Below the pieces are notes generated by a model that made no database searches, was not told the origin of the DNA, and saw only the letters and a program-made list of their open reading frames with translations. Below, piece after piece: positions 17-60,219 of a DNA stretch of 64,000 bases. Each line of letters opens with the position of its first letter. Position 1 is the stretch's first letter. The position numbers were made by a program, and so were the translations under genes. The DNA comes from Bimastos eiseni (Eukaryota; Annelida; Clitellata; Crassiclitellata; Lumbricidae): assembly GCA_959347315.1 (NCBI GenBank), contig OY365806.1, positions 50,018,842 to 50,082,841 on the forward strand, in the 5' to 3' direction.

Positions 17-6080
<6,064 letters not shown>

Positions 6081-6378
6081 CTCTGCAGCCTCCTACAGTT
6101 GTGTGAAGGAGGGCTCGCCTATTTGATTATATAAAAGTCAAGATTAAGGAGAAGAATGGTAAATAATATGCAAATGCAATATGTAGATAATATGCAAAGA
6201 AGAACGTGTAGGAAAGAAAGAATAGGAAGAAGCATGCGATGGGCAAGAATGCGAAGACGAGAAGATAGATACAGGAGTAGGTGAAGATAATGGGGAAATA
6301 TAGAATGAGAATGGGGAGCAGGTTGGCTAAATAGAATGATGACGATTCAGACGTTGCAAGGCCCTAATAAGGAAACGT

Positions 6379-9539: not shown

Positions 9540-11196
9540 ATCGATGTGAGTCACATCGATGGATTTCGGTCTTTTAGAAGGGATCGGCTGGCCAGACGAG
9601 CAGAGGGCGTGGCAATCTATTTTGCGGAGCGCTGCAGGGCCTCGGAGATTGATCTACCTGCTCTGGATCCGGACTTCGGCCAAGGACCGGGTGATCTTCG
9701 TCGGAGCCCAATATCACCCGGCACGACCGATATACACAACTGAGGCCCTTCTCGACAGAATCGAGCAGTCTGTTGAGTTTCTTGCATGGACGGATTCAAG
9801 AGCGCTGATCACCTTAGGTGGGGATTTTAATCAACTTCACGAGCAAGATATAGTAGAGCGAACTGGTCTCATCCCACTCATCCATCAGCCAACCAGGGGT
9901 GAAAACATCCTAGATAGATTGTTTGTTTCAGAAATGTGCTTATCGTCAGTGAAGATCATGGACTGAGCCATCAACACGGACCACAAAGTCATGATCGCCC
10001 TACCCGTTGGCATAGTCACCAATCGCCACAAGAAACAGCATAAGGCCATATTTCTGAAACGAACTCCGAATCAGCATGCCCCCCCTCCTCCAGGAGCTGT
10101 CGACTGTCGACTTGTCTTATATTCAACAAATCAGGGATGTCCAAGCTGCTTGGGACGCCTTCTATGCGGACACCATAGAAAGATTGGAGCGGTTCTATCC
10201 AAAACGGGAAATCACCATGACATCGTCTGATCCTTACTTTCTGAAACCTGAAATGAAGCATCTACTCAGGCTCAAAAACACACTGCTGAGAGCTGGTCGT
10301 ATCGAGGAAGCCTCGGCTATTGCGAAAGGAGTTTTGATCAGGATAGACAGAATTGTAAAGGGTCAGCTTAGCTCAATCGATATTTCTGATGGCCTGCAGA
10401 CGCTTTGGAAAAGTGTCGAAAGTTAAAGAAGCGTGGAGCACCAGAAGATGCAGAGGATGGTCTCACAGCTGATGAGTTAAACAACCCCCATGCCACCGTC
10501 TCAGCGGATGAGAACTATGTTCCACCAAGCAGTAAAGTAACAGTGCACAATGGAAGACAATTTATATCAGAGCTCCGCGTATTCAACATTTTGGACCGAT
10601 GGGTGCCGATGGGCTACCAGCGTGGTATCTTCGCTTGGCTGCCCCGGGTATCTCGGAAACGCTCGCCTATCTTGTCAACCTGTCACTGTCTCAATCACAA
10701 TTACCGCAACAGTGGAAAATGGCAGTCATATGCCCTGTTGCTAAGGTTCCATTGCCGACGAAACCAGAAGAATACCGCCCGATCTCTGTAACGCCGATAT
10801 TATCTAGAATAGTAGAACGCGAGCTAGTCCATCGGTTCATCTACCCAGCCTTCGAGGACAAACCTGTCGCAGACCTCTTACAGGATCAATTTGCTTTCAG
10901 ACCAACAGGATCAACAACATCGGCTCTCGTATTCATACAGCATCACGTTTCTCAGTTACTTCTGACGAACGATTATGTGGTCTTAGTTTCACTCGATCTG
11001 CCAAAGGCCTTCATTCGGCGAGACATGCTCCACTCCGCGGCCAAACTGGCAATCCTTAACTTACCTGATCTTGTCTCTTGTCTACAATTGGGTTGTCAGT
11101 TTCCTCAAGGGCCGATCACATGTCACCAGATGCAGAGGCCACATATCGAACGTCAGAGAAATCGAGAGCTCAGGACCCATGGGCTGCCAACTATAT
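9540..11196 (+). mobile_element. Non-LTR retrotransposon (LINE) with endonuclease and RT pieces, decayed and 3' truncated
   Basis: Frames on the plus strand carry APE-endonuclease blocks (GVAIYFAERC near 9610; LGGDFNQLH near 9815; LDRLFV near 9915; the TDHKVM equivalent after a stop near 9975). The reverse-transcriptase region follows (10600-11190): YRPISVTPILSRIVERELVH, DQFAFRPTGSTTSALVFIQH, VSLDLPKAF and a frameshifted SVIQGS-like tail. Several frameshifts and stops (for example at 9964 and 10423) make it inactive. The catalytic FADD box and everything after it is absent. The element stops abruptly in an AT repeat at 11197-11226. Clade is uncertain; the GSTTSAL block suggests a CR1/Daphne-like lineage. 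Confidence 0.85.
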
Positions 11197-11935: not shown

Positions 11936-12023
11936 CACATCGGAGACATTGTCTGCGGAAAAGATGGAGGACAGTTGAATTCTCTGGCAAGCGCATTATC
12001 GCTCACACCGTCACACACTTATT

Positions 12024-12473
12024 ATGTATGTATGTATGTATGTATGTATGTATGTATGTATGTATGTATGTATGTATGTATGTATGTATGTATGTATGTA
12101 TGTATGTATGTATGTATGTATGTATGTATGTATGTATGTATGTATGTATGTATGTATGTATGTATGTATGTATGTATGTATGTATGTATGTATGTATGTA
12201 TGTATGTATGTATGTATGTATGTATGTATGTATGTATGTATGTATGTATGTATGTATGTATGTATGTATGTATGTATGTATGTATGTATGTATGTATGTA
12301 TGTATGTATGTATGTATGTATGTATGTATGTATGTATGTATGTATGTATGTATGTATGTATGTATGTATGTATGTATGTATGTATGTATGTATGTATGTA
12401 TGTATGTATGTATGTATGTATGTATGTATGTATGTATGTATGTATGTATGTATGTATGTATGTACGTATGTAT
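12024..12473. repeat. (ATGT)n microsatellite, about 112 units
   Basis: Essentially perfect ATGT units over about 450 bp, with a single interruption (ACGT near 12464). All long frames across it (MYVC.../HTYI...) are artefacts of the repeat. Its true length may differ from the assembled length. Confidence 0.99.
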
Positions 12474-12679
12474 CGGTATCAATGAATGAGGGCAGCGTAA
12501 AAAACAGCAATAGCCAAAGCATCGCTGAACACCCCACTTCATCCTCAAGAGCCTTCACATGATCTACTTAGACCGGAGAGGGACGGCGCGCGGTCGTCTC
12601 AAAGAACATCTGGTCCACACTTTGCGACGCATCCTGGCCATCGAAGGACCGACCACCGAGAAGACGATAACCTCTGGAC

Positions 12680-18124: not shown

Positions 18125-30167
<12,043 letters not shown>

Positions 30168-30894
30168 CTAAAATTCAGTAAATTTTACTCAGTTTTAGAG
30201 ATCTATAAGGAAACCAATTGACATTAAACCTATTTCAAATACGATCTGAGTGAGATCTTTTGGGGTGTTGTGTGACGAGGTAGAAAAACTGGCTAGTAAC
30301 AGAGATGAATAGCTAAGCTGCACTGCCCAATTTCCAGACCTGCACTGCAAAGCACTGATTAAAATTATATAATTGTATATCTACTCATAATTTGCTTCAA
30401 TCGTTAACAATCATGCATGTTAATTAGTGGTGAGGACTGAGTAGGTGATGTAACTTACTCATACTCAATGATGAAGTATGGGTAGCCAGGCGTCCGTTCC
30501 AATGGATATGGGCAAAAGAATATTGACACCTCTAGTGAAATATAGTTATTAACTCATATTGCACCAAGTTAACTGAATTTGGGAATCTTCTTGGAGTGAT
30601 TAAGTGGAACACTCTCAAATGAAAAAAGTTGGAAACTGAATTACTGATTGATCAACTTACTAAAAGTTTTCACTCCAGAATAAGAACCTGGCTGCGACTG
30701 TTGTCCTACTTTGGCACCTTCTATAAACGACGCTGGTCTTTGGCGCCCACTCATTTCCAATTTTTTTCAGTTGGCAAACCTTCACAGATCAAAACAATCA
30801 CTGAACTTATTGATCACATCGCAATATATCACAGCCACATCAATATACAAATAAGAGCTATTAGTTTACAATGGTGAATGGTGCTCATGACCAG

Positions 30895-42707: not shown

Positions 42708-45700
42708 TTAAAGGCATATCTCTTTTTCCAGGAATCCTCCTGGATTCAGGCGGATGAACAGCTTTCGAAATTCATCGTAGATTGTGAGTGTTATCACAAA
42801 CAGCAGCGGCGCAAACCACCAGTGCCACCTGGCGAACAAATACATAAAATGATGGCACTGTTTAATAACAATCTCATACATTTTTTAACTATTAAAAACA
42901 AAGTGCATAGCACTATCTTATTCAAGTGTACCACTTCACATCATAGGAATTCTTCAGACGCACACATACAGATATTACGGATCCAGTTGACAGAGACCAA
43001 AAAAAGAGGACAATAAGCTCTTGTGGCCTTTTCAACTTAGCTTGAGAGAAATGATGGATCACAATAGGATTTCTAGAAGAGGTCGGACTTGTGTACATTT
43101 TAAACGGAAAGCGCTTGAGTAAGAGAGAGAAAATGAAGCTGTTGGATGACATGGGGTACAGAAACGAAGAATTTGGAGAATTCCAGGTGAGAAATCGAAA
43201 CAAATTCACAGTGAAGAAAATCACCAACACAAACATTTAATGCTTCTTGGATTGGCGATCGTATGTGAAATGCCAAAGCACATGGAACCTATTTCAATTT
43301 CTGATTCAGAGTCACGAAACAAGTGAATGAAAACACCTCATCCAAGTGATGTCGTTCAGGTAATCGGCTATAAAAGTGATATCAGTACAGCTCTACTAAG
43401 CATTCCAAGAAAGTGTATACTCAGATACTGCAAAACTGTTTAAGCACGCTGAGCAGACTTGATAGCAAAATCCTCGAGACATTGAATGTGTACATTCAAA
43501 ATGCCATGCCTCGAATTAAGATTTGCTGAACACATAAGTTTTATCGATTTATTGTAATTGCAATCATAAAACAACAAAAGAAGAAATCTACCCTGTTAAT
43601 AAATTATTAAGCAGAATTTCAAGCTGTCCTGCTAAAGATAGAAGGAATTCATCCTCTCACCTGATTGGATACATTCGAAGACCTTTGTCCATACCAGGAC
43701 AATATATGAAGAAGAAAGCAAGGAATGTCTCCAGGAAGAGCGACCAAATCAAGTAGGAGTTCCTGTGCAAAAGCATACCGGTAATCTAAACTGTCTTGGC
43801 TGTCCAATAATCCACAGATATCAATTCCAAATGCCAGTACATCAGTACAGATGAATGCATATCTGTTTGCATCAATGATGCATCTGATTATTTTTACTTC
43901 CAAGTCTCAAAAAGTTACAAAACACTTTAGTTAGAAATGTTTCTTAAGCTGTATATCACAGAACATTATGAACTAACTGAAACTTTGTACAAGATATAAT
44001 AAAACTAAAAATTTAATTTACCATGGTTTAAAATGAGCATGCCTATTGCAAGTACAAGTGAGCAAATTGGTTACCCATAATATAAAGAAGCATTCCTGTA
44101 TCAATAAAGACTGCCTTATTATAGACCCTTGTCAGCCTGTATTGAAGGCCCGGTGTAGTTGCTCTTGTAGTTCCATTTGCACATACAGCAGCCATACAAA
44201 ACTGCATTCCCTGTGGTAGGCCCTATGGTTTTGAAAAAATAATAACAAGAACAATGTTTGGCCTGAATGAATCATTTTACCCAAAGCCTTGTTTAGCAAA
44301 TCCGTTTGTCCTCGTCTTACAAGCAATCAGGTTCGCCCACTGAAGCATGACAATGCTGAAGAAGAATCCTGTCTGACACGTATACTCCAGGATCCGACGT
44401 TGACCAAATGACTGAAAATGAAATTCAATTACTTTGCACATCAGACTTTCACATCAACTGATCATCTACCTAAATGTTTGTGTACTTAATGTTTGCTGTT
44501 TTACATGTGTCATTTCTACTGTCGATATTACTCATATTTAAAGTGCACAGCTTTAACATCGAGAATCACAAGGTTATCACCTTAGGTCACCAATAGAGCA
44601 AATAAAATTATTTTCAACACTAATTCCAACAATAATTTTTGTACCTAAAACCTCTTCTTAAACAAAATAAAATGTAATTTAGTAAAACACCAACAACTTT
44701 AAGTAACTAGTTTAAAAATTATTCTCATAATAAATTTGTTTAAAGAAAACCAGAAAATAGTTAAGCACCTAAAAAAATTAAAGTAAATAAATAAAATACC
44801 AATCAGCTGCCTGTTAATTCTATTTCAAACATACCCATTCTTGGCCAAAGGCATCCTCAAGGTCATTGACGCCTCTCGTTCCCCAGATTGCCCTCAGTCC
44901 AAGCAATCGCTGAGGCCAGAATCCAGCCTCAGCCATGATAGCAAAGTACGTGAAAAATGCACCACAAATCTGTATCATGCCGTTCTGTCCAAATGCTATT
45001 GTGAACAAACTAAAACGCAACACCATACACATCAGTATGAAACAACTATTTTCATTGTTTACCTCAGGTTGACCTGATAATTTAAGAAAGTTCAGTATAA
45101 AAACCATCCTTTAACACTTTGACCTATGAACTTCCTATCTAAATAAATACATCATGTCAAATCAAAATGTCTTGTTCAGCTAAATCTCATGACATTCTGG
45201 TTGAAACATCACTATTACTTATTGAAAAGGACCAAATCCAGAGAGAATGGAATAGCTATCCTACATAAGGGAAAGTGCAGCTTTATTGTTAATATTTTGC
45301 ATTTAACCACAGGAGAAACAAGACACAGGAATGACAAGGTTCAACCACAGGTTAATAAAGAAATATCAATAAAGCTGTGTTTTTCAAAATATACATAACT
45401 TGAAGTAGGTCAGATTCACTGAGAGTCAGGTCTATTACAGACCAGACTATCAGGAAATAATTTAATTTAAAGATAAAACCTTTTTTTTACAATGCTTAAA
45501 ATTGAATTACTTGAACAGGTTCAATGAAATAAGTTGAAAATAGTTGTTGGAAATAAATAATGACACCCGTAGTATTTTGGCAAAACAGGCAATGACAGTG
45601 CCAAAGGCCGGCCATGATCCATATGAGAATACATTCATTGTGACCAATGGTCCCATTGGTTTGGTGCAAAATGTGAACATTTCTTTCACATAAAATGAAG

Positions 45701-48700
45701 CACTAACAGTACCAATGAGAGTCAATTGTATTACTTTCGACTGCAAAGACGGTTGTGCTTTGGATCTCGTGGAAGACGCCTCATGTTGTCCGACTCCGGA
45801 TTCTCAAACGAGAGAGCGATTGCTGGCAAAAGATCCGTTCCAAGGTCGATGAACAAGATCGTGAGAGCACCAAGCGGAAGCGGAATGTGAGCGATGACAG
45901 AAAGCATGAAGGCAGCCATTTCTGGAAGGTTACTCGTCAATGTATAGGCAATTGACTTCTTCAGGTTGTCAAACGTCAGACGGCCTGAACACACCATGAT
46001 ACAACATGATGTAATTAATGGAATTTATTTAGCTCCTTTCATGATGTCTACTATATCTTGTTCAGCCAATGGACATAATCATGGTGTGTTAGTTAAATTC
46101 TTATTAGTTTACCTAATTTAGCTTTTCAAAAGTGCTACTTAAAAGGCTCTTGTACAAATATGGCCAATTATCAGTGAATGTCATGGAACAGACTCTTAAA
46201 AATTTGCACACAAAATCTGGACATAAGTAAAGAACACTAATACATTACAAATTACCAGAATACAATGCTGAATATTACCTTCTTCAATACCAGCGACAAT
46301 TGATGCAAAATTGTCATCGAGGAGAATGATGTCGGCCGCCTGCTTACTCACGTCAGATCCACTGAGCCCCATTGCAATCCCTAAATAAATCATTTGCAAA
46401 ACAAACACTTGAAGCTATGTGTTGTCAACATCAAAGTGCAAAATTTGCATGTTCTAATAACACATCTCTTAAACCAAATTCAAAGGAACAGCTAACACTA
46501 ATATCTAAATACCCTTTTAATTGAATATATAACAATATTTTACAAATAATAAATATCTATATAATTAAGATTCATAGATAAGTCCATTATACAATCTACA
46601 CTGTGAAACTGACAGTTTTACTAACGAGTTGCATTCCATTAATGTATAACTTTATTTCGCAAATAACAATGGAAAACAAATGCTAACAAATAACGTGTCC
46701 TCGGAAAAATGTAAATTTTAACATACACAGATAATCTTAAAAATTAATCTAATTATAGAATGAATTAATGTTCATAGTCAGCTTTCATAGGTTGCATTCC
46801 ATAAATGCAACGTAATTAGGAACGTACCAATGTCAGCCTTCTTGAGCGCTGGTGTGTCATTAACACCATCACCTGTCACCGCAACGATTGTTCCCTGTCG
46901 CTGACACGCTTCAACAATAATCAATTTCTGGTGTGGTGTTGTTCTTGCAAACACTATCTCTGGATGCATGTATAGAACATTGTCCAGTTGTGCAGGGGTC
47001 ATGTCACGTAGGTCAGCACCATGGACAACACACGCTCTGGCATCTCTGTCAAATAACAAATCATTTTCTAATGCATTCTGCCAACTGCTCATAGTGTGCT
47101 GGTATAAAGCATATGGTGTCAAATAAAAGTTGCCTCGTGTGTGTTGCAACTGTTAATTCATTGCAGAAAGTTCGATAGGACAGAAAAACGTAAACCAGAG
47201 CAGAGTAAAACAATAAAACTATGAAGACATAACAAGGCTTTGTCTCCACATAGTTTTATTGGGAAAACCAATGGATAGATAGTCTGATAATTGACCAAAC
47301 AGGATGGAAATTATTAATTTGTGTCAATCACCTTAAGCATGGCTTGCAACAGGAACTGATGATGATGAAAATTTAATCTGATTTTGAGAATCTATGGCCT
47401 GTCATAGGAGAAAGGGAAATGACATTCAAAAATCATAATAGTTCAGCCAGATGTCCAATAAGGTCAAGAAAGCACAGAAAGTGATATGATAGAAACAATT
47501 ACTAATACCACTGGCAGCATAATCACTGGTAGAGCAAAGAATAATAGGTTATCGAGTCTCGACTGGGTTTTCAGTTCGCCCAGTTTAGTCCTTAGAAGAG
47601 CAATTTCTTTTGTAACATTCTCATATCTTGCATCTTGTTTAAAGGTCTTCATTAAAGTCTTCCTAGTGTAGAAGTGAAGGACCCAATGACTCAAACATTC
47701 TTTCAAAGATTGGCCTTAGTAGTTTTTCAAGGCAAATCAAAATACACCTTCTACTATTTTTCGAATGCAATCTAACTTTTATGGAAAGCTGAAAATAATA
47801 GATATCATACATTTACACTGTGTTATGATCACCAACCTTGGAGGCACTTCTGTGATTGGAATTCCCAGCCTGGCTGCAATGTCGTCCACTGTTTCGCTTC
47901 CATTTGAAAAGATCCCAACTCCTTTGGCGACGGCCTTTGCTGTGATCGGATGATCACCAGTAATCATGATCACTTTGATCCCGGCCATGTGACACCGATT
48001 AATTGCGTCTGGAACTGCTGCTCTCGGCGGATCGATCATCGAGACCATTCCTAGGAAGCGCAGTCCGGTCTGTGGAAAGTTTTCATCGTCAACATCAAAT
48101 GGATATCCGTGTGGAAACTGTTCTATTGGAAGACGGAGGTCACAGACACCAACCAGACGCTCTCCCATTCCACCCAGCTGAACGAAGGCATGGTGAAAGG
48201 CCTGTCGCCAACTGCTGCTGATCTTCTGCTCCTGACCACCAACCATGATCGAACTGCAACGATCAAAGACTCGCTCCGGGGCTCCGGTCATCACCAGAAG
48301 GTAGCGCTGATCACGAGGGTCATCCATTTCGTGTATTGACACCTGGATAATAGAGTTATACTTCAGATTACATTGCTCTAATTATTATCATTTCATCACT
48401 ATGAATGCACAGGTGTTATGTACATCTCCATGCATTTATTTAGCTCTCGTATTTAATGACAAAGCCTCGGTTGATGATGCTGAGCAATGAAGGGTCACAT
48501 GATGTAATTTGAAGGACATGCTTAAGGTCCCTACATAGCAACCATCTGAGAGGGTGGCTCAAACCGTCCCTTTCCGAGTTACAAGTGAGCAAAATAACCA
48601 ATCAGTTACATTTAATTGCAATAGCAACAAGAAATTACTTATTGTAATTGTGGGCTTAATTACAACATTGTAATAGCAAATTACTTCTTTCTTTCGCTCA

Positions 48701-51700
48701 TTTCTGTGACTTCATCAAAGGTCACTAACTAAATCAAACATTTCCAGGTCACCGCACATAGCATGCACAAAACCTCAATCATTTGACTAATCTAATTCTT
48801 AATTAGTAACTTCTCTAACACCCATGTATAAGGCACAAACAACTCCAAAATTGTCTTTACTCAATTAAAAGAAAATTTAATCTTGGAAAGAGGATTGCAT
48901 ATGACATACTTGATACTTGATGACAGAGTTGAATGGAATCTCACAGACTTTGCGGTTTCTCTGTCGAAATTCAGCAGAATTTCCAACGGCAAGTTCCACA
49001 AATCTCAGAAGGGCAATTTCAGTTGAATCTCCATGACATGATCTGAAATGCATTTATGTAGAGCTTTATTAAGATGATGCGAGGGTCGAGAAAATTTTGC
49101 TTCATTTACGTCACTTACTCTATTTGATCACCCAATCAATGAAAACTAATGATGTTCATTACATTGTGTAAAAATAATGCAGAATGACAATTGGTGTAGG
49201 GCTTACAATAAAGATAATTGTCTAGAGTATGATAAGAGCTTTTATGGCTTTTACTAATTACGTGTATGAAGTCTGAAACTCATGTCCGAGACAAGTTTAC
49301 ACAAGAACTGGTTGGGGTCATTAACAGTCTGCACAGCAGGCACAAACCCACAATCACTGGATTACAGACTCAGTGAACTGCTGAAGAGACCACTTTACTT
49401 TCTTAAATTATAAATAACTTGAGTCTAACTCAAACAATAATCACTGTAATGCAAAACCTTGGCAGAAGAATAAAATTTATTTTCTGACAAAATAGAGATA
49501 CTTGCCTTCGTAATGGATTTCCCGACCCTCCACGAAATTCTGCTCGGTTGCAGAGCATGACCGCTCGGGCGAGACACATCCACGTCGGATTGTCCCTATT
49601 GTAAGTGGCATCTGTTCAACAAATCAAAAAACGTGTTCACAGGATTGACTGTGCTTCTGGTAATAAAGTTGTGTGGCACAATGGCTGATCGGTTAGAGCG
49701 GTCAGCCCGTAACGTTCAGTGTGCACTGAGCGAGCGGGTTCAACCCTCAGCCCGGGAGTCACTGTGTAGGGACCTTGAGCAAGTCTTTCACGCACAATTG
49801 CTCTGCAGTACAACTGCAATTGCGCCGTCGAGGCGTGTGCATGCACTTCTAAGCAAAAAAATGTTGGAAGAAGGGAGGTATCAAATTTCAGAAATAAATA
49901 AGTAATTAAAAAATTAGTACGGTAACATCTATTGTGCCAATGCACAAAAGGCATCAACCGATGGCTCACCAGAAAACAAGCCATAATCAGATCAATATAT
50001 ACAGAAGATAAATAAATGGACAAGCAATCTCTAAAATATAAGACTTAGGCCAAGAATGAAATGACCCAAGTGACTGAATGAAAAGAAACAAAACGAGAGT
50101 TCCAAAATCCACGTCCAACAAGGTTAAAATCTCAGTCCATTACGACTTAGACATAGGGACATGCTGTGGGCTTTCTAAGCACTAGCAGCTCTCAGCCTGA
50201 AGTCTATATGTGTGCGTGTTCTTTTTAGCCGTTCCAGGATTGGGAGCGCTCCTGAGTAGTAGCCTTGAAAGGGCGCTACATAAATCTTCGTAATGAATGA
50301 ATGAATATAGGTTTTTCTTCGTATTCAATGTTTTATTTTTTGTTAATTATGCTATTATAATTTTCCTGTGTGGGTGTTTAATAAATTTCACCAAATTGTG
50401 CCAAAAGTTGTTCTTGATTTTCACCAAGTATCAATTACATTATATTAACCTTCAACCCTTATCCCTCCAATTATTACATCAAATGCATTAAAATTGGCCG
50501 CTGTAAGCGGCCTCAGTAGTGGTAAGGGTTAAGGAAAATGTACCTTTCTATTGCCTTGCATACCTCACCAACTCTACATTTAGGTCACCATGTCGCAAGA
50601 GCATTCACTCGTTTCCTTTAAGTGGTTCTATATAAATTCCCAGTTATGAATTTGCACTTTATGCAGACTATCTTCCGTGGAACTTCTTACGTTGCTGTTC
50701 TTCGCTGAGGTCAGCGTACCAGATCTGGTTGTCAAACCACATGTGAGAGACAGTCATCTTGTTCTGTGTCAGTGTTCCTGATTTGTCGGAGCAGATGATT
50801 GATGTTGAGCCGAGAGTCTCCACTGCCTCCAGGTTCTTGATCAGACAATTCTTATCAGACATTGCCTTTGCGGCCACAATCAAACACACCTGAAACAAAT
50901 AAAAATCAGCTATTATTTCTCATCACAATTTCAAAATAACGGTTACAAAAGATTGTAGAACAACTAAACTATAATATAAAGAAAAAAAATTAATTGATTA
51001 ATTTCTGAAACTATAGAAATTAGGAGCCGAAAAATGGGCCAAGTAGCTATTCGGCATTCGGCCGAATAGTAGCAGTTGGACCGAATACAAATAGTTGTCA
51101 CTTGATATCTGTTTCTGCGTATGGATATTACGATTTCAGAGCTCTAGAGGTAGATGTCATCACGATGATGAGATATTCATTTATTTAGAAATAACACAAT
51201 CGGACAAAAAGCGCAAAATTGCTGACATGAGTGACAGTGAACAATAATAGTAGCTAGAATAAAAAACAAACTACATAGTAAATGTTTTTGCATAATGCTC
51301 TGGGGATAAATTGAGAATCGTTTTGGGTGAAGGACATGGTGTGTGCTCTAGGTCTTAATTGGCGATTGGAGTGGGGCTGGAGTGGAGATAGAAGTTGGTA
51401 AAGAACATGCTTGGGGTTGTGTAAAATGGAGAAAATGAGTGTGGCATCTGCTACGTTTGCAAGATTGTGTTTAAGATTGTTCTAAATAACTTAGGCATTT
51501 AGCTCTTCTCCGGATTCTTTCCAGGCACTCTTTATCAGAGGCTAGGGTCAGACCCCACTAGGATAACAATTTAGCAATGGTAAAATAACAGTTCAAATGA
51601 GAAATTAACAGATAAAAACATCCTTTATATGTAAGAAAAGGGAATTGCTAATAAAGAACAAAACAAATCTGAAATAAACAAAATAAACCATACATTATTT

Positions 51701-54700
51701 TTATCAGCATAGCAACAATAATCATAAATAATGAGAGAGTTGATTAGTGCTTAGATTAATGCTAAGCAAAAAAACCAGTTAAGATATAAATGAAATTAGT
51801 AAGCTCACAGTTATAAGTGGAAGCAATCCTTCAGGAACGCAGGCCACAATTAACCCAATGAGAAAGATGAGGGCATCAACCCAGATGGCGTGTAGAAACT
51901 GCGACTCAATCATCATCCACAAGAAGAAGAACAAGAGCGATACAAAGACAGCAATTCCAAAGAGGATGATGATCAGGAATCGGATCTCACGAGCGATCAG
52001 AGTCTCCTCCCCAACCTCCGTCCGTGCGGCCACGAGGGCTATGCGACCCATGACGGTGCGGTCACCAGTCCCAATTACGACGCACCGAGCGACCCCTGAA
52101 AGATGAACAAGGTCAAGAATTCAATCTACAATCTGGAATTATATGCAGCAGTATCTGAAGCCATGCGAACTGCACCAAGATCTGCGTGGCAGGTGGCATT
52201 TTCACATCTCATTTGATTCTGAGATAAGAGAAAGAGAGAGGTCAGTGAGGGACAGATATAGTGAGAAACTGATGGATAGATAGAAAGAAGTAAATAGTGA
52301 ATTGGTACAGAGCAAACAAGAGACACAGAGAAAGACAGAGGCAAATAGAGAGATAGACAGAGACACAGACAAAGATAGACATAGACAAAAGTGACAAAGG
52401 ATGGCTTAGACAAAGATACATACAGAGAGACAGAAAGAGTAACAGAGAGAAACAAAGAGAAAGAGAGAGATAGAACCTGTGAGACATATACAGAATGGGG
52501 ATCGACAGACTGGATACTGAAGAGGAGCCTCATAGATAGCGACAACTATTGAACTGACACAGTCATACACAGGTGGAGAAAGAGACTTATAGAAGCAGAG
52601 GAAACAGATAGATTCTCTAACATTATCTCTAAAGTTCTAAACACAGCAGTTCCTTCATCAATTACCACAGGCTCATTGGTGCGTCCAAGTCACATATGCG
52701 TATTAGTCAGGCAAGTTCAAAAGCCCAGGACTTGCTATATCCATACCGATTCAATGTAAAACCACACCCATAACTTTCATCCAACACAGTTCATCATACA
52801 GATGCTCTAATGCTGATAAAATTGAGAAACAGTTGACGCTGACCTTCTACAACATTTGTTGAATAGAAGATGAGGTTTCTTGTCTCCAGAGGGTTTTCGT
52901 TTGTGTAGTCGGCCGTCCGAACTTTTGGTTCCGATTCTCCAGTCAGTGCAGAATTATCGACCTAAAACGATCGACGATCAATCAGTATGCCACCTATAAG
53001 ACTTTCTATAACAGAAGTGTATCTATGTTCAGCAATCACAGTGCAAACCATTAAAGCACCTCATGACTAAATAGTCAGTTCTTTGATAAAACAAGACCAC
53101 AAAGCTAAAGAACGCAAATATCTGCCTACAAATCGACGAATTAAGAGACAAGGCAGTCGGTCATTAAATTTTTGGGAAAGAGTATAAATAGCATTATCAT
53201 GATCAAGTCTTGTAGGAACACTATATAAGTTTATGATTACTTTCGTGATTATCATTATGATATAGACCTTTAACCAAACACTTAATTACATCCTAAATGA
53301 TAACGATGATTTTTTCCTGCCTTGAATCCTTTTGCTGCTATGATTCTCATATCCGCAGGGATTGTGTCCCCCGTCTTTACTTCAACGATGTCCCCAACGA
53401 CAAGCTCCTCTGCGTGTATGCTCATCTTTTCGTTCTTTCGGATAACCAGCGCAAACTAAACAAAAACACTATATCTAGTTATCTATGTATATATTGATTG
53501 TAATATATACACCTGTATAAACGCAACACCGATGGTAGAGCAAACTACGCTCGTGATAATATATCTGAGGCATCTTGGCTGTCGAGTGTCATGATGTAAT
53601 GTAACAGAACAATTGAATAACGGGTCTCCTGCGGCCATCAAGCACGTGGAAAAGTTGCTTCCTAAATGTTAGAAAAAAAACGCAGTGCAGTCCGCATCAA
53701 GTGGTACACAATGAATTTCCATATAAAACTATTTCAAAATGATACTCCAATGACAGAGCAGCCCTGACACGCAAGTGGAGACGTCCGAGACCATGGAACT
53801 AGGAGATCCACATAAAAATGAAACCACAGAATGAAACACTGGCAACTGAGCTGAGTGGAGACTGAAGTGGATAGCATTCTGCATTCATCGATCATAGTAC
53901 ATAAATATGATTAGGAAGAATGAGAAGGCATTCAGTTTCTTAATGATTAGAATAAAGATCAGCAACAAAGGATTAAATTGTAAATCAAATCAGCAAGCCA
54001 AGACAATGATATATGTGACGTACAAATGATTTCTATTAGGTCTTTTGTAATTGTAGCAAGCAGCAAAAATAAACAGTGATAGCCGTAATTTATTTTCAGA
54101 AGACAGTACTCATTTCACGGGCGCCATCATTAGTGTCATTATTTTGCAATTATAATCACTAACAATGTAATAGAAGAATAATATAATATTGTGGCAAAAT
54201 TTCCTAGCTGGTTAGCAATTATTGTGCTCAATGTCTCGCTACAATGTCTCACTTTGCTTCGGGTATATATATAGGAGAGACATAAGTGCAGAGCAGAATG
54301 TTTAAGATGTATGCTGGAATGTTAAGAAGGTTGGAAAAGAAGAAGTTGTCGTAGTAATAGTTGCAAAGACAGCGTTTTGTACAATAACTGTTCGATGACT
54401 GTGGATTTTATCAAAGCAATAAAGATAACTCAGTCGGAATTGAGTCGAAGTTATTTGTAATGAGCTCACATCGTTGACATAGGTAGTCTTTCTCATATCT
54501 GCGCCAACAAGCCAGACTTACCTCGTGGACAGTCGAACCTGGCCAAAACAACATTGCAGCCTCCTGAGGATTAAGGGGAGGTGAACCAGAATTGCCACAA
54601 CTGACACCACTGAAGTAGGGTAGAATCGAGGTACACAACAAATTGGAATGCAGAAGTGGGGTGAATTGCTACCCAGGCACCCGAGTACGTTACAAATTGG

Positions 54701-57700
54701 TGCACCAGAAGTGAGGTGTAACGGTTTTGCCGCAATGCAATAGCGCTTCCTATTCTTTATTTGATCGTAGAACCTATGGGAACCCCATCCAACACTACAC
54801 ATATTCTGTTTTAGGTAAAAACGCTAGAGAATGCAGACACTAAACATCAGTTTAGGCCAACATTAGGCAAATAATAACACAAATATCGATGACAATTACA
54901 TATGAATTCACTAGCATATAAAGTTATACACAGATTTTAAGCAAAAAGCCTAATAAGACAAATTTTTATACATTATTTAAAATTGTTTAAAGCTTATCAT
55001 TCACATTTAAAGTTTTCCACGGAACCCTTGTCTTCATCTCACGAAACCCTAGGGTTCCACCGAACACAGTTTGGGAAATGCTCCTTAATGTGTCATTTGT
55101 CAGATGACATACCCCATTTTTACATTTTATGGACACTGTTCTTTGTGTTAAATTCTTTCCATTGGAGGAAGAGTAAGAGGTATAAAAAGTGGTTGAAAAG
55201 GAGGGGGGGAGGAAGAAGTGGCGGATGTGTCGACTTTAAGTGGTTCATCTGAGATAGTTAAAACTTAATGTCATAGGATGGAAACACATCTAGTGATACA
55301 TAACTGCAATAATCACCAGTTTAAAAGAATTATAAAAAGAACATTTATTTTAAATAACTTTGGGAGACAATCCAAAAGATTAGTATCAACCAGCATGAAC
55401 GGTGAGGAATTTAATTAAATAAAGAGATATAATGCAAGAAAAAATGTCCTTTTATCTGTGTAGAGAAATGATTTCCAACATATAACATCATTGTTTAACT
55501 TCTGAGGGACCATTTATAGATTTTAAAAGTATATGAAAAGATAAATAACAACCTGTGGTGCCAGCTTTTTGAAGGACTCCATGATTCGAGAACTCTGTGC
55601 CTCTTGGTAATAGGAAAAGCTTCCATTGATAATGACAATTCCAGCCAAAATGAATCCCAGGTAGAGCTATAAATACACAAACAAACATAAAATTTTAAAG
55701 TGATTTCATTACCACTTATTTATTGAAATAACTTTTATACACAGACAAGATCATTAAAAGAGTCTGCTCAGCAGGTGCAAAATTATCATTGTTGGATTGT
55801 AATTATAGTAGTAATCAAAGATTTATATAGCAACTCATCAGCGGCACACCCCGACCTATTAACAGAAAACCAGTATCAAATGAAAGGCTTTTAGATGCTT
55901 ACAGACTAGAGGCAAGAAAGACAATCCAACAAAGTGTGACTCCTAGTAAAGTACCTCTACAACAGGACTAGGGTTTCCAGATATTTCTGCAAAAAGGGTC
56001 ACATCATCAGCAAAGTGCATGTTAGATGTATGTGCCTGTGTTTCCTTTGGCAACATCCTGCTCCACGATCTGGTCCAATGGTCGGTCAAAGGTCCTGGTT
56101 TGGGAACAGGCTAAAACCCTGATGCATACCTTTCTATGCTGTTACATCAATAAAACTCAAACTATTAACACATAATAGGCAGATAATGTTGACAGAGGAG
56201 AAGAACATTGGCTAAGATGACAAAGGCAAAGTTATGATACAACGCAGTACCAAAAAAATTCTTGGCTCTCTGTTACAAGGACCATGAATGCTTAAATACA
56301 ACGCATAACTCTGCCCACAGTACCAACTCACATTATCAGCTGGAGGTTCTTCGAGAGTTGCGCCATGAATTGAGAAGACAATGAAGCATAGGCAAGACGC
56401 AGTCCACAGAAGCAGGTTCAACCAGTTGAACATGTGTTTGCACAGTCGAACCCATTCTGGAGTTGTCTTTGGGGGACTCAGTTCGTTTGGTCCGTCACGT
56501 TCAAGCGTGTACTTGGCACGCTCCATACTGATTCCCTGGACAGGTCATCAAAAGTGTTCAGATCAAACATGGCTTATCCAAACAAGTATGCATAAAGTTC
56601 CATAATAAAAATATTTCATTACTTCTCTTTCTCGTTTATTGCAGCCATAGCAAACGGTACAAGCAGTTAACAAACAATACAGATTATAAACTATAGGTTA
56701 CAAAAGGCACCCCAAAAGGGATCGAAATCCCGCTAGCAGGGACACCCAAGTAGCTGAAATTAACAAGAGGAAAAAGAAATAAGATATACGTCAATCAATA
56801 TTAGTCCTAATTCTAACTCGAGAGGGCTAGGATCATCGAAACCATTAGACAGTCATAAACGCAAACAAATTACCAACTAACCCTCAGCACCAAACAGAAT
56901 CTTAAAAAATTAACTTAATTAAAGCGGTTTGTGAGCCTGGACGATGGGTGGTGGACCAAAGGCGAGCGAGTGACCCGTTTGATAGTTGTGGAAATCATAT
57001 CATCGAGCCATTTCATTTATTAAAAAAGTACGCAAATTATTTTTAAATGTATAAGGGTTGATGGACAAACGAATTTCAAGCGAAATAGCGTTCCAGAACT
57101 GCGGACCTGAAGATTTGAGACTAAATTTACGGAAATTTGTTCGGGCTCAATCATAGCGGTAAGTGTGGGAGTTCCTTGTGCAGTAGGCATGGGTGTCGGA
57201 GCCCAAGGAGAAACAATTTAGGAACACTGATGGGAGTAGACCGCGCTCATAGCGGTAAAAAAATATGCCTATTTGAAGAATTCTAATTTTTTCTAATTTT
57301 AGAAGCTGCAAATCTTTAAATAATGGGTCAGTATGTGCAACTCTATGGGCACCCGCAACCAGACGTATGGCCCTTTTTTGTAGCACCATAGTTTAGTGAG
57401 CCTTGACTTATAATTTGAGGACCAAATTAAATTACAATAGGTTAAGTATGAATAAATCAAGGTATGGTATAATTGAAGTTTAATGGAATTAGGGATAATG
57501 CAGGAAACTCTGGATAATATACCAATATTTTAAGCTATTTTATTAGCAATATGATTTATATGTACAGCCCAGGATAGATGGTGGTCGACATATACCCCAA
57601 GGAACTTGGCGGATTCAACCTGATCAATCGGTGTGCCTTTTATGTGGAGACTTAAAAGGTTTAGATCCTTTGGTAAAATTTTCCTATTAGAACTGAAAAG

Positions 57701-60219
57701 AATGAAATTTTTCTTATCCAGGTTGATCGTGAGCTCACTGGCGCAAAACCAATCGGCTACTTTTGATAGCTCCAAGTTCATATTATCAAGAAGTTTATCC
57801 AACGATTTATGAGAAAGAAACATATTAGTAACATCTGCAAACAGTATAAAGAATAAAATTGAAGACACGTACGTTGGCTAAGTCATTTACATAAAGAAGG
57901 AAAAGGAGCGGTCCTAAGTTGGAGCCCTGCGGAACACCATAAGTAATAATAGCACTATCAGATAGGTGGCCATTGCAGCTAACGCGTTGGGAGCGGCTAT
58001 CAAAATAACAATGAAACCAATTTAATTGGGCACCTCTGATACCATAGTTTTCTAATTTTTTAAGGAGGATTTTATGGTTTACAGTATCAAACGCTTTTAC
58101 TTGGCAGTGACCAGATAAATAACTGTAAATGGCTCCTACTAATTTTAAGCCTTTGCCCTATCATTGGTAAAAATTAAAAAGCGTATAGGTTAAAAAGGCT
58201 GTACATAGCTTAACAAAATATTGCATAAAAACTAGTTTTTTCAGTTCTGAGAGCGAAATATATGGATATTTAAAAAGGTATGCACAGATTTTTTCAAAAC
58301 AAAATATGGCCCCTTCCTGATTTTTGTAAGAGAAAACAGCAAATTACCGTATCAAAATTGACTCCAAGTCGTTCAGCTAATTCTTGAAGACTGCATTTGT
58401 GTTCCACCTGAAAATATATATTGTAGAATAGTTAGCACATCATTACAGAATTGAATAGATGATCACCACATGTTCAAGTGAAATTAATAGAACAAAATAA
58501 GTGTAAAGACAAATTATTATTTTTCAGATAAAGGCTCAATTTGCTAATTAAGCAGCAGTGTAGTTGTTTCATAAAAGTGCTTTATAAAATAATGTAGGCC
58601 AAACTATCTGTGGATTCTGGTTGCATGGTGAGCTGCAAAGAAAGAAAATGTTCCTTGTTGGTGATAAGAAACAAGTGCTCTGGTCTATATGATGCATTTC
58701 TTTGGGTGCCAGAGGTACTTAACTTGACAGGCATCTTTCTCCCAGCCTATGTCACAACCTCTGTTTTACCTCAGCTTCAGATCAACAGCCTTGATCAATA
58801 GTGAAGAACAAAATTAATAGTGGCTTAGAATTATTTTTAATTCATGTATGCATATATTTCCAACCTGTGCTTTTATATGACAAATCGAACTCTGCAAAAA
58901 ATATTTAAAATAGTTAGACCTTAATTCTTTGATGATAAGCATGTACTAAAATGTATGATAAAACAAAGTCAGAAAGATTAACAGTGAATACACAACTAAA
59001 AAGATGGAAAACTGCACAATGGAATACTAAAACTTAAATATTGATTGAAGTTTCCAACCAGACATATTGAAATATTAACAGAGAAGCTACACACAGACCT
59101 CATGAAAAGACACCATAAATATGTTTAATAACAATTATGAGAAATGTCAAAAACTCTTCTGACCAGCTCCAACTCTTGCTTCAGGTTCTCGATGTCCTCC
59201 CTTCGCAGTTTCTTAACCTTCCTCTTCTTCCGCAGTGGCCTTCCCTCTGCCGATAGTCCATCGTCCGCGATTGGCGGCTGAACAGCAAATCGGTAGCTGT
59301 CCGCCCTAGGCTCCTCCTAACATTGTACAATGTAACAACATGTAATGCCAATGTGATGTTAAGTAGCAGAATCAATTTCGTATTAACAAAGTAAGGGTAA
59401 TATACTTGCAAACATAGTCTGTTGAAACCCCTTAGAGGCAAAAACTATAAATATAAAAACAAAGATAACGCATTTGTTTTAAACAGCTCAAACGAATCTC
59501 ATAGACGCATCAAAGCATTTTGAGGCATTAGAGGGAATTCAAGTAAAGTGCAAACCCCAAACTGCGAGTTAGGCATCGTGAGGGTCTGTTAGGGTTAGTA
59601 TTAGGTCTAGTTAGTATACAGTTTGCAAACGGTTGGCAGATTACTGGTTTGCAGTTCGAATCTTACCAACACCTCATTAGAGGCATTTAGGTAAAGACTA
59701 CACATTTGTTTACATTTTTCTCAACAAACCAGCCGGATGAGATTTTGTCATGCATCTTTCTCCTGGTCTATGTCAAAACCTCTGTTTTATGTACTTTTGT
59801 CTCTATTGACACCTCTTCCTATTTTGATCTGCATTGCTCTGTTTCTCATCGTCTGCCTCTGTTGCCTTGCTCTCTTCTTGAAGTTCTTGTCATCTGTCGA
59901 CAGTTGTTTCGGTGCTGGCTAACTTGCCACTCCATGTACTCACCTTGCTCCTACTTCTTATGTTTCCACAGACACAAATCAGCCAGAAATTTGCTCCATA
60001 CTTTCCTGAAACTGGCTGAAAACTTCCGAAGAGCTATCGCGTACCTGCATCGTAACGCAACTTACGCATCCAATATAAACCGACTAAACACAATATACAT
60101 TCCATTTTCAACAGCATAGTTTCATTTTAGCGTAAAAGCAAGATAGGGATATTAATTAAATTAAGATTGAACTGTTTTAAAATTCCTACATCTTTCTTTC
60201 TGATCTTTTGCGAAGCCAT
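42708..60219 (-). CDS. ATP1A: Na,K-ATPase-type P2C ion pump, alpha subunit, divergent
   Basis: Nineteen exons, high to low: 60219-60190 (tentative), 59316-59164, 58407-58348, 56535-56332, 55666-55553, 53455-53321, 52961-52844, 52095-51809, 50889-50691, 49611-49506, 49042-48910, 48342-47837, 47045-46828, 46380-46279, 45984-45735, 45009-44835, 44411-44281, 43762-43661, 42828-42708. Phases all agree; about 1047 residues, near the family's 1020. Seen in order: Lys-rich N-terminus, M1-M2 with [20 protein letters not shown]4 CVPEGLL, phosphorylation loop DKSGT (Asp about residue 402), [23 protein letters not shown]5 [10 protein letters not shown]6 IDLGTD, M8 QWAN, stop after KEICL. By family, a plasma-membrane cation pump working with a beta subunit. 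Ser in TLTSN is Na,K-like (H,K pumps have Lys). DKSGT, TGAPER, QWAN and the C-terminus depart from canonical pumps. Two introns have GC donors. Confidence 0.93.
43355..43398. mobile_element. Right-end fragment of the ATCGGC-rich hAT family
   Basis: AATCGGCTATAAAAGTGATA and the following CAGTACAGCTCTAC parallel the right end of the element at 20017-20699. In the last intron of the pump gene. Confidence 0.55.
44095..44235 (-). other. Unexplained open segment in pump-gene intron
   Basis: The minus strand is open across this stretch and ends [16 protein letters not shown] before a possible donor (G/GTAACC). It starts after an AG with a mediocre pyrimidine tract. It is about where the ninth membrane helix is coded, and [10 protein letters not shown] weakly resembles NKILIFGLFEE. 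The phases do not allow insertion between exons 17 and 18 without a frameshift, so it is not annotated as an exon. It may be a transposon fragment. Confidence 0.3.
48490..48605 (-). mobile_element. tRNA-derived SINE, copy 3 (fragment)
   Basis: The reverse complement shows GGTTTGAGCCACC (B-box-like), then TATGTAGGGACCTTAAGC and GTCCTTC, matching the body of the SINEs at 28640 and 49671. The 3' part is lost. Confidence 0.65.
49671..49908 (+). mobile_element. tRNA-derived SINE, copy 1 (best preserved)
   Basis: RNA polymerase III A box TGGCTGATCGG (49682) and B box GGTTCAACCCT (49737) lie 55 bases apart. They are followed by the family body (TGTGTAGGGACCTTGAGC, TTGCTCTGCAGTACAACT, GGTATCAAATTTCAG) and an AAATAAATAA tail. 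It inserted in the pump-gene intron 60 bases upstream (in gene sense) of exon 10. Confidence 0.85.
50225..50310 (+). mobile_element. L2-like 3' tail with (AATG)n end
   Basis: GAGTAGTAGCCTTGAAAGGG then CGCTACATAAAT, ending in AATGAATGAATGAATA. Same 3' end family as at 30895 and 62640. Confidence 0.6.
51015..51150. mobile_element. Fragment of the GCCGAATAG-rich hAT family
   Basis: Starts GGAGCCGAAAAATGGGCCAA and contains CATTCGGCCGAATAG, parallel to 25130-25260. Truncated. Confidence 0.7.
52230..52480. repeat. Imperfect GA/ACAGAGA low-complexity stretch
   Basis: Purine-rich with recurring AGACAGAGA and GAGAGA words. The Ser/Leu-rich minus-strand frames over it are artefacts. Confidence 0.75.
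54000..54790 (+). mobile_element. Possible LTR-retrotransposon remnant
   Basis: A TATATATATAGG box near 54262, an AATAAAG near 54420 and, downstream, two near-repeats of AATTGG..GCAGAAGTGGGGTG (54640 and 54697) resemble an LTR followed by a primer-binding leader. No gag/pol was seen and the borders are undefined. Confidence 0.3.
56640..58160 (-). mobile_element. CR1/Jockey-like LINE, RT to 3' UTR, inactive
   Basis: From about 58110 downward the minus strand encodes [21 protein letters not shown], then [20 protein letters not shown] and the RT C-terminal part (57868-57530), where the catalytic FADD reads FADV after a frameshift. The rest (57389-56990) has [20 protein letters not shown] and [15 protein letters not shown]. 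The 3' UTR near 56710-56770 shares the GGGATCGAAATCCC hairpin-like block with the LINE at 427-1321. Inserted in pump-gene intron 3, same orientation as the gene. Confidence 0.85.
58728..59800 (+). mobile_element. Possible second SINE-like family (two short matches)
   Basis: GCATCTTTCTCC..CCTATGTCA..ACCTCTGTTTTA occurs at 58730 and again at 59752. Upstream of the second copy, AACGGTTGGCAGA and GCAGTTCGAATCTTACC (59630-59665) resemble A and B boxes of a tRNA-derived head. Pump-gene exon 2 (59164-59316) lies between the two matches and is not part of them. Confidence 0.35.

Follow-up and report, generated by a model that had tools for sequence, protein, structure and literature searches.

A likely sodium-pump paralogue under constraint in the annelid Bimastos eiseni, with a weakened ATP grip and without a normal third Na+ site

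A P-type ATPase gene in a 64,000-nucleotide stretch of the Bimastos eiseni genome (hereafter the window; contig OY365806.1, positions 50,018,842 to 50,082,841, assembly GCA_959347315.1) raises the question of what becomes of a sodium pump that departs from its family at residues which are otherwise invariant among the relatives retrieved. An earlier note on this DNA had drawn attention to the motifs DKSGT and TGAPER in the places of DKTGT and KGAPER, and had proposed an altered nucleotide affinity or a specialised paralogue rather than random decay. Our analysis indicates that the gene likely encodes a constrained sodium-pump paralogue with a weakened grip on ATP and without the normal third Na+ site, belonging to a clade that seems to be confined to annelids. 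The loss of the site-III aspartate, together with other changes in the ion pathway and at the C-terminus, was missed in that note and bears more directly on transport than the two motifs do.

The gene lies on the minus strand (60219..42708) and is complete, with 19 exons encoding 1047 amino acids and a stop. Its coding length is spread over 17.5 kb with 18 introns (16 GT-AG and 2 GC-AG) and contains no internal stop, so that the open 19-exon frame described before is borne out, while the span given for it (48260..50830) reaches only from within exon 12 to within exon 9, exons 10 and 11 included. The protein matched TIGR01106 (P2C ATPase alpha subunit) over residues 48-1045 with 1520.2 bits against a cut-off of 946.1, and Pfam returned the P-type domains as expected. 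Against solved structures it scored 1400 with Na,K-ATPase alpha-1, 1280 with alpha-4, and 1161-1188 with the listed H,K-ATPase alpha-chain entries. Judging from these matches, it is a P2C ATPase whose nearest solved structure is Na,K-ATPase alpha-1.

Two homologue searches, from which the best 120 of 7986 and the best 120 of 7763 hits were taken, yielded 146 distinct proteins (120, then 26 more). The window protein and seven of these relatives, P0001, P0002, P0003, P0005 (from Helobdella robusta), P0006, P0007, and P0063, form a clade of eight, and P0001 is the nearest among the listed matches, with 85% identity. A profile built from the eight scored the seven relatives at 1974-2094 bits and the next protein at 1833. 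The remaining 139 retrieved P2C proteins, which we call canonical, served as the comparison set; this set is defined by exclusion of the clade, represents the top of longer hit lists, and holds many near-duplicates and isoforms. Residues of the eight are listed below in the order window, P0001, P0002, P0003, P0005, P0006, P0007, P0063, and the pig residue numbers and the roles given for pump positions are, except where a paper is cited, those that we take to apply.

Both motif changes are present in the window protein. The codons GAC AAA TCA (50779..50787) encode Asp402 (pig D369, the phosphorylated residue; 50787-50785), Lys403 (50784-50782), and Ser404 (pig T371; 50781-50779), and the codon ACC (48286..48288, read from 48288) encodes Thr532 at the position of the fluorescein isothiocyanate (FITC) lysine, pig K501. 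That lysine is present in 139 of 139 canonical proteins and in none of the eight clade members (T, T, I, T, T, D, M, T). The DKTGT threonine is likewise invariant in the 139, and reads S, T, T, T, S, S, S, S in the clade, with three changes between Ser and Thr on the tree; the motif is further damaged in P0002 (DKTGA) and P0063 (DKSGS). What the clade holds in common is therefore the absence of the lysine, which four different residues replace, and not the particular Ser and Thr of the window protein. DKSGT and TGAPER as a conserved pair must be rejected, since the serine occurs in only five of the eight, is absent from the nearest relative, and is not new, the phosphorylation motif having been printed as D-K-S/T-G-T in a 2024 paper on Caenorhabditis elegans CATP-1 (PMC11631496). 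Literature searches for "DKSGT" with ATPase and for "TGAPER" with ATPase gave no match.

The window protein has TGES, TGDHP, and TGDGVND unaltered, as had been noted, and D369 and the glutamate of TGES are kept in all eight members. The equivalents of the other tabulated nucleotide-site residues (E446, F475, K480, Q482, G502, and R544) are also kept in the window protein. Loss of Lys501 is expected from the mutagenesis literature to weaken ATP binding, and the window protein may, as proposed earlier, have an altered nucleotide affinity.

A change that speaks more directly to transport is at the site-III aspartate (pig D926, human ATP1A3 D923), where the codon AAC (44331..44333) encodes Asn957. 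This position is Asp in 139 of 139 canonical proteins and non-Asp in all eight members of the clade (N, N, N, A, T, A, V, V), and the residue found in the window protein is the same change as human ATP1A3 D923N. Na+ at site III is coordinated by Gln923 and Asp926 (PMC9463140). Neutralisation of Asp923 in human alpha-3 lowered Na+ affinity more than 100-fold and left K+ affinity unchanged, and the Cys930Arg replacement abolished Na+ binding at site III and made the Na,K pump electroneutral, though still Na+-dependent (PMC9463140). The alpha-3 D923N protein was expressed like the wild type and lost ~80% of its ATPase activity (PMC7949067), and Asn at this position in human ATP1A3 is reported to cause rapid-onset dystonia-parkinsonism. 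The tabulated site I/II residues, in contrast, are all kept in the window protein (E327, S775, N776, E779, D804, and D808; six of six), as are Q923, W924, C930, and E954, and the clade as a whole keeps D369, E327, S775, N776, Q923, and W924 (8/8). Set against a Na,K-ATPase exchanging 3 Na+ for 2 K+, the window protein thus has the site I/II set and lacks D926 and K501.

These two positions are part of a wider departure. There are 479 columns conserved at 99% or more in the other 139 proteins; all eight members differ at 28 of them, with one identical new residue throughout the clade at 12 of the 28, and the window protein alone departs at 90 (92 of 484 under a slightly different filter). Pig N324 in M4 is Cys in seven members and Leu in one. 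The T797 position, presumably a residue of the ouabain site, is Ala in seven of the eight (the canonical 139 have T in 133 cases and V in 6), and Ala also stands in seven of the eight for S894 of SYGQ, which we take to be a beta-contact motif, although that site is variable elsewhere too (S in 117/139). In the window protein Cys-Leu replaces the C-terminal tyrosine pair, of which the other seven members retain the second residue and vary at the first. In comparison with canonical Na,K-ATPase alpha (ATP1A / Nak1), then, the window protein shares the fold family, phosphorylation site, TGES, TGDGVND, tabulated site I/II ligands, Ser775, Trp924, and Cys930, with 55-65% identity to the canonical proteins listed, and differs in having no FITC lysine and no site-III Asp, CL for the C-terminal YY, T797A, Cys for Asn324 in M4, and Ser in DKTGT.

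It could be argued that this is an ordinary Na,K pump whose substitutions are near-neutral, given that Thr to Ser is a conservative change in a motif printed with either residue (PMC11631496) and that the window protein retains the other tabulated nucleotide-site residues. We consider this quite improbable, because the 28 otherwise conserved columns changed in all eight members include D926, and because the D926-equivalent Asn mutant of human alpha-3 is described as pathogenic, with loss of Na+ affinity. A proton pump or H+/K+-type pump has some points in its favour: site III is closed to Na+ in gastric and non-gastric H,K-ATPases, which are P2C proteins as well (PMC9463140), so that the loss is shared in effect, and four of the eight members, the window protein not among them, have Ala at the P778 position like the non-gastric H,K pump. 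All eight, however, have Ser in M5 where H,K pumps have Lys, keep Trp924, and have no Arg at 930, and the window protein differs from H,K pumps in losing the aspartate itself. The structure scores (1400 for Na,K alpha-1 versus 1161-1188 for the listed H,K alpha chains) point the same way. A pump of this type is highly improbable, and for the window protein, with its M5 Ser, Trp924, and Cys930, we reject it.

Is the gene simply decaying? Between the window protein and P0001, 13 of 421 sites that are fixed in the other six members differ, against 135 of 558 elsewhere (Fisher p 1e-22; this split was chosen after a weak first split had been seen), and of the 13 changes four belong to the window lineage and nine to that of P0001. 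By this comparison, the window lineage is under strong, site-specific constraint. Six of the relatives (P0001, P0002, P0003, P0006, P0007, and P0063) are open reading frames (ORFs) of 991-1048 codons, and the longest contig per ORF is 3.2-4.6 kb, as against the 17.5 kb and 18 introns of the gene in the window, which means that these contigs are most simply spliced transcripts and suggests that the relatives are expressed in their species. A clade of eight with full-length ORFs and such constraint agrees with the earlier view that random decay is not the explanation and that the gene is a specialised paralogue. A decaying pseudogene or an assembly error is scarcely credible. Ser404 is one base from Thr, is absent from P0001, and, judged from the window alone, may be a one-base error, but Ser at this position is shared by four other members. 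An error is unlikely for T532, because P0001, 85% identical, also has Thr and no clade member has Lys. The pseudogene is rejected by the 19 open exons, their GT/GC-AG splice sites, and the site-specific constraint.

Where the paralogue came from was approached with two trees. The main tree had 34 rows (the window protein, 31 of the 146 proteins, and two PDB rows) and was rooted on gastric H,K-ATPase; in it the eight form one clade (100/100) whose stem is 0.61 changes per site long, and they group at 97/98 with 12 annelid-type canonical Na,K-ATPases, with no supported position inside that group. Seven of these 12 rows carry annelid names (Eurythoe, Lamellibrachia, Capitella, Platynereis, Dimorphilus twice, and Hirudo). 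The eight also stay together in a quick unrooted tree of 41 rows (the window protein and 40 of the 146), with a support of 100 in the Shimodaira-Hasegawa-like approximate likelihood ratio test (SH-aLRT). A tree forced to unite the 12 annelid-type rows to the exclusion of the clade was worse by 8.9 log units (approximately unbiased [AU] test, p 0.04), and one forced to unite the 24 protostome rows in the same way was worse by 18.6 (AU p 0.026), both tests being marginal and their constrained sets named after the tree had been seen. An annelid-specific duplication is thus favoured, not proved, by the sequences at hand. Narrow searches of the open-licence literature for annelid or clitellate Na,K-ATPase duplication found no paper on such an annelid clade.

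A fast-evolving second Na,K-ATPase alpha is in itself already known: Nak2 paralogues of this kind were reported from arthropods and others in a paper on barnacles, where a DSYR motif is described as conserved at the N-terminus of Na,K-ATPases (PMC3793950). The window gene resembles them in being a second, faster-evolving alpha copy and in having DSYR in exon 2. It differs in that its clade falls among annelid sequences, in a tree without a recognised arthropod Nak2. CATP-1 of C. elegans, likened here by description only, is another P2C (type IIC) alpha subunit (PMC11631496).

The best explanation of these observations, on which we find ourselves evenly poised between belief and doubt, is that the window protein would still be phosphorylated and exchange cations, would bind ATP more weakly, and would have no working third Na+ site, acting as a slow, possibly electroneutral pump of low Na+ affinity beside a canonical pump, whose gene we assume to be present in the same genome. 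By analogy with the mutants, such a pump would need high cytosolic Na+ and would export fewer Na+ per cycle. Its stoichiometry might be an electroneutral 2 Na+ : 2 K+, as extrapolated from single mutants in a canonical background, and we put electroneutral pumping forward as a hypothesis by that analogy. The more sweeping proposal, that an annelid-specific clade has given up its third Na+ site and, with its ATP site weakened, exchanges 2 Na+ for 2 K+ electroneutrally and at low Na+ affinity, seems to us unlikely.

Besides the marginal AU tests, several observations weigh against a pump of the kind we prefer, or against its annelid origin. P0001 has N713H (TGDGVHD) and D804E, P0002 has TCDGVND and E779Q, and both P0005 and P0063 have D808N and E954N, with R544 replaced by S in P0005 and by T in P0063. 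The first proxy for constraint was weak, since it gave 62 differences between the window protein and P0001 among 481 sites invariant in the canonical set, and 87 among 501 others; this suggests that the clade follows its own pattern of constraint and not the canonical one. The main tree puts the annelid Owenia not in the annelid-type group but next to the bryozoan Watersipora (81/90). Because the clade is heterogeneous in catalytic and cation-site residues, a pumping role may not extend to all of its members. The losses in P0001, P0002, P0005, and P0063, together with the altered C-terminus and SYGQ motif, would fit a pump-deficient alpha-like protein that keeps its fold and conformational cycling and serves as a scaffold, a regulator, or a partner of the beta subunit; pump-independent functions have been proposed, though disputed, for CATP-1 (PMC11631496). 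We regard this alternative as rather unlikely for the window protein, which keeps the tabulated phosphorylation residues and site I/II ligands save for the Thr to Ser change in DKTGT, in a clade whose eight members all retain the phosphorylated Asp and the Glu of TGES. The slow pump with a weakened ATP site remains our preferred reading, and pump activity of the window protein is accordingly given here as a prediction from its residues.

The exons, all on the minus strand, are as follows. Exon 1 (60190..60219) was placed by homology, through the N-termini of P0002 and P0003 (MASQKI) and P0006 (MASSKI), a part that P0001 and P0005 are without; the other boundaries are those of the gene model. 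Exon 2 (59164..59316) carries the DSYR motif (PMC3793950) and a Lys-rich N-terminus and is followed by exon 3 (58348..58407), exon 4 (56332..56535; M1), exon 5 (55553..55666; M2), and exon 6 (53321..53455; A domain). TGES lies in exon 7 (52844..52961), TGAPER and TGDHP in exon 12 (47837..48342; N/P domain), TGDGVND in exon 13 (46828..47045), and the C-terminal EICL, for the usual ETYY, in exon 19 (42708..42828; M10), which also holds the stop. ACVPEGLL, with Cys for pig N324, lies in exon 8 (51809..52095; M3-M4), the retained equivalents of pig E446, F475, and K480 in exon 11 (48910..49042; N domain), the retained S806, N807, E810, D835, and D839 in exon 15 (45735..45984; M5-M6), the extracellular AFGQ for SYGQ in exon 16 (44835..45009; M7), and the retained E985 in exon 18 (43661..43762; M9). 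The remaining exons are 9 (50691..50889; DKSGT), 10 (49506..49611), 14 (46279..46380), and 17 (44281..44411; M8). The two GC-starting introns follow exons 6 (53320-52962, GCAGGA) and 10 (49505-49043, GCAAGT), and both end in AG. At positions 335 and 339-342, in the M3-M4 loop of exon 8, the window protein and P0001 alone have five residues; the other six members show gaps in these columns, as do at least 99% of the 139 canonical proteins. Intron 3 contains a reverse-transcriptase match (RVT_1, 2.5e-10, 57828-58157) within 57533-58157, adjoined by an overlapping ORF in another frame that has no Pfam match; the region is probably a decayed element of the type without long terminal repeats (non-LTR).

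Elsewhere in the window, two carboxylesterase-family ORFs on the minus strand (17-322 and 5778-6092; 99 and 38 bits) are possibly exons of one gene. An ORF on the plus strand (10536-11195) has a weak reverse-transcriptase match (24.6 bits, under the Pfam cut-off of 29.6), and one on the minus strand (29848-30174) matches the beginning of a protein kinase domain (27.1 bits, under the cut-off of 31.7) and resembles what we take to be a GSK3 exon. A long tandem repeat of short units, with YIHT and MYVC translations in several frames, occupies 12006-12554, and tRNA and Rfam scans of the 64,000 nucleotides gave no matches.

If the protein pumps, it would offer a natural experiment on the FITC lysine of the ATP pocket and the site-III aspartate, neither of which varies in the other sodium pumps retrieved, and would allow a direct test of whether the sodium pump owes its electrogenicity to site III. 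Should it prove not to pump, it would be one more alpha-subunit paralogue with a suspected role other than pumping.

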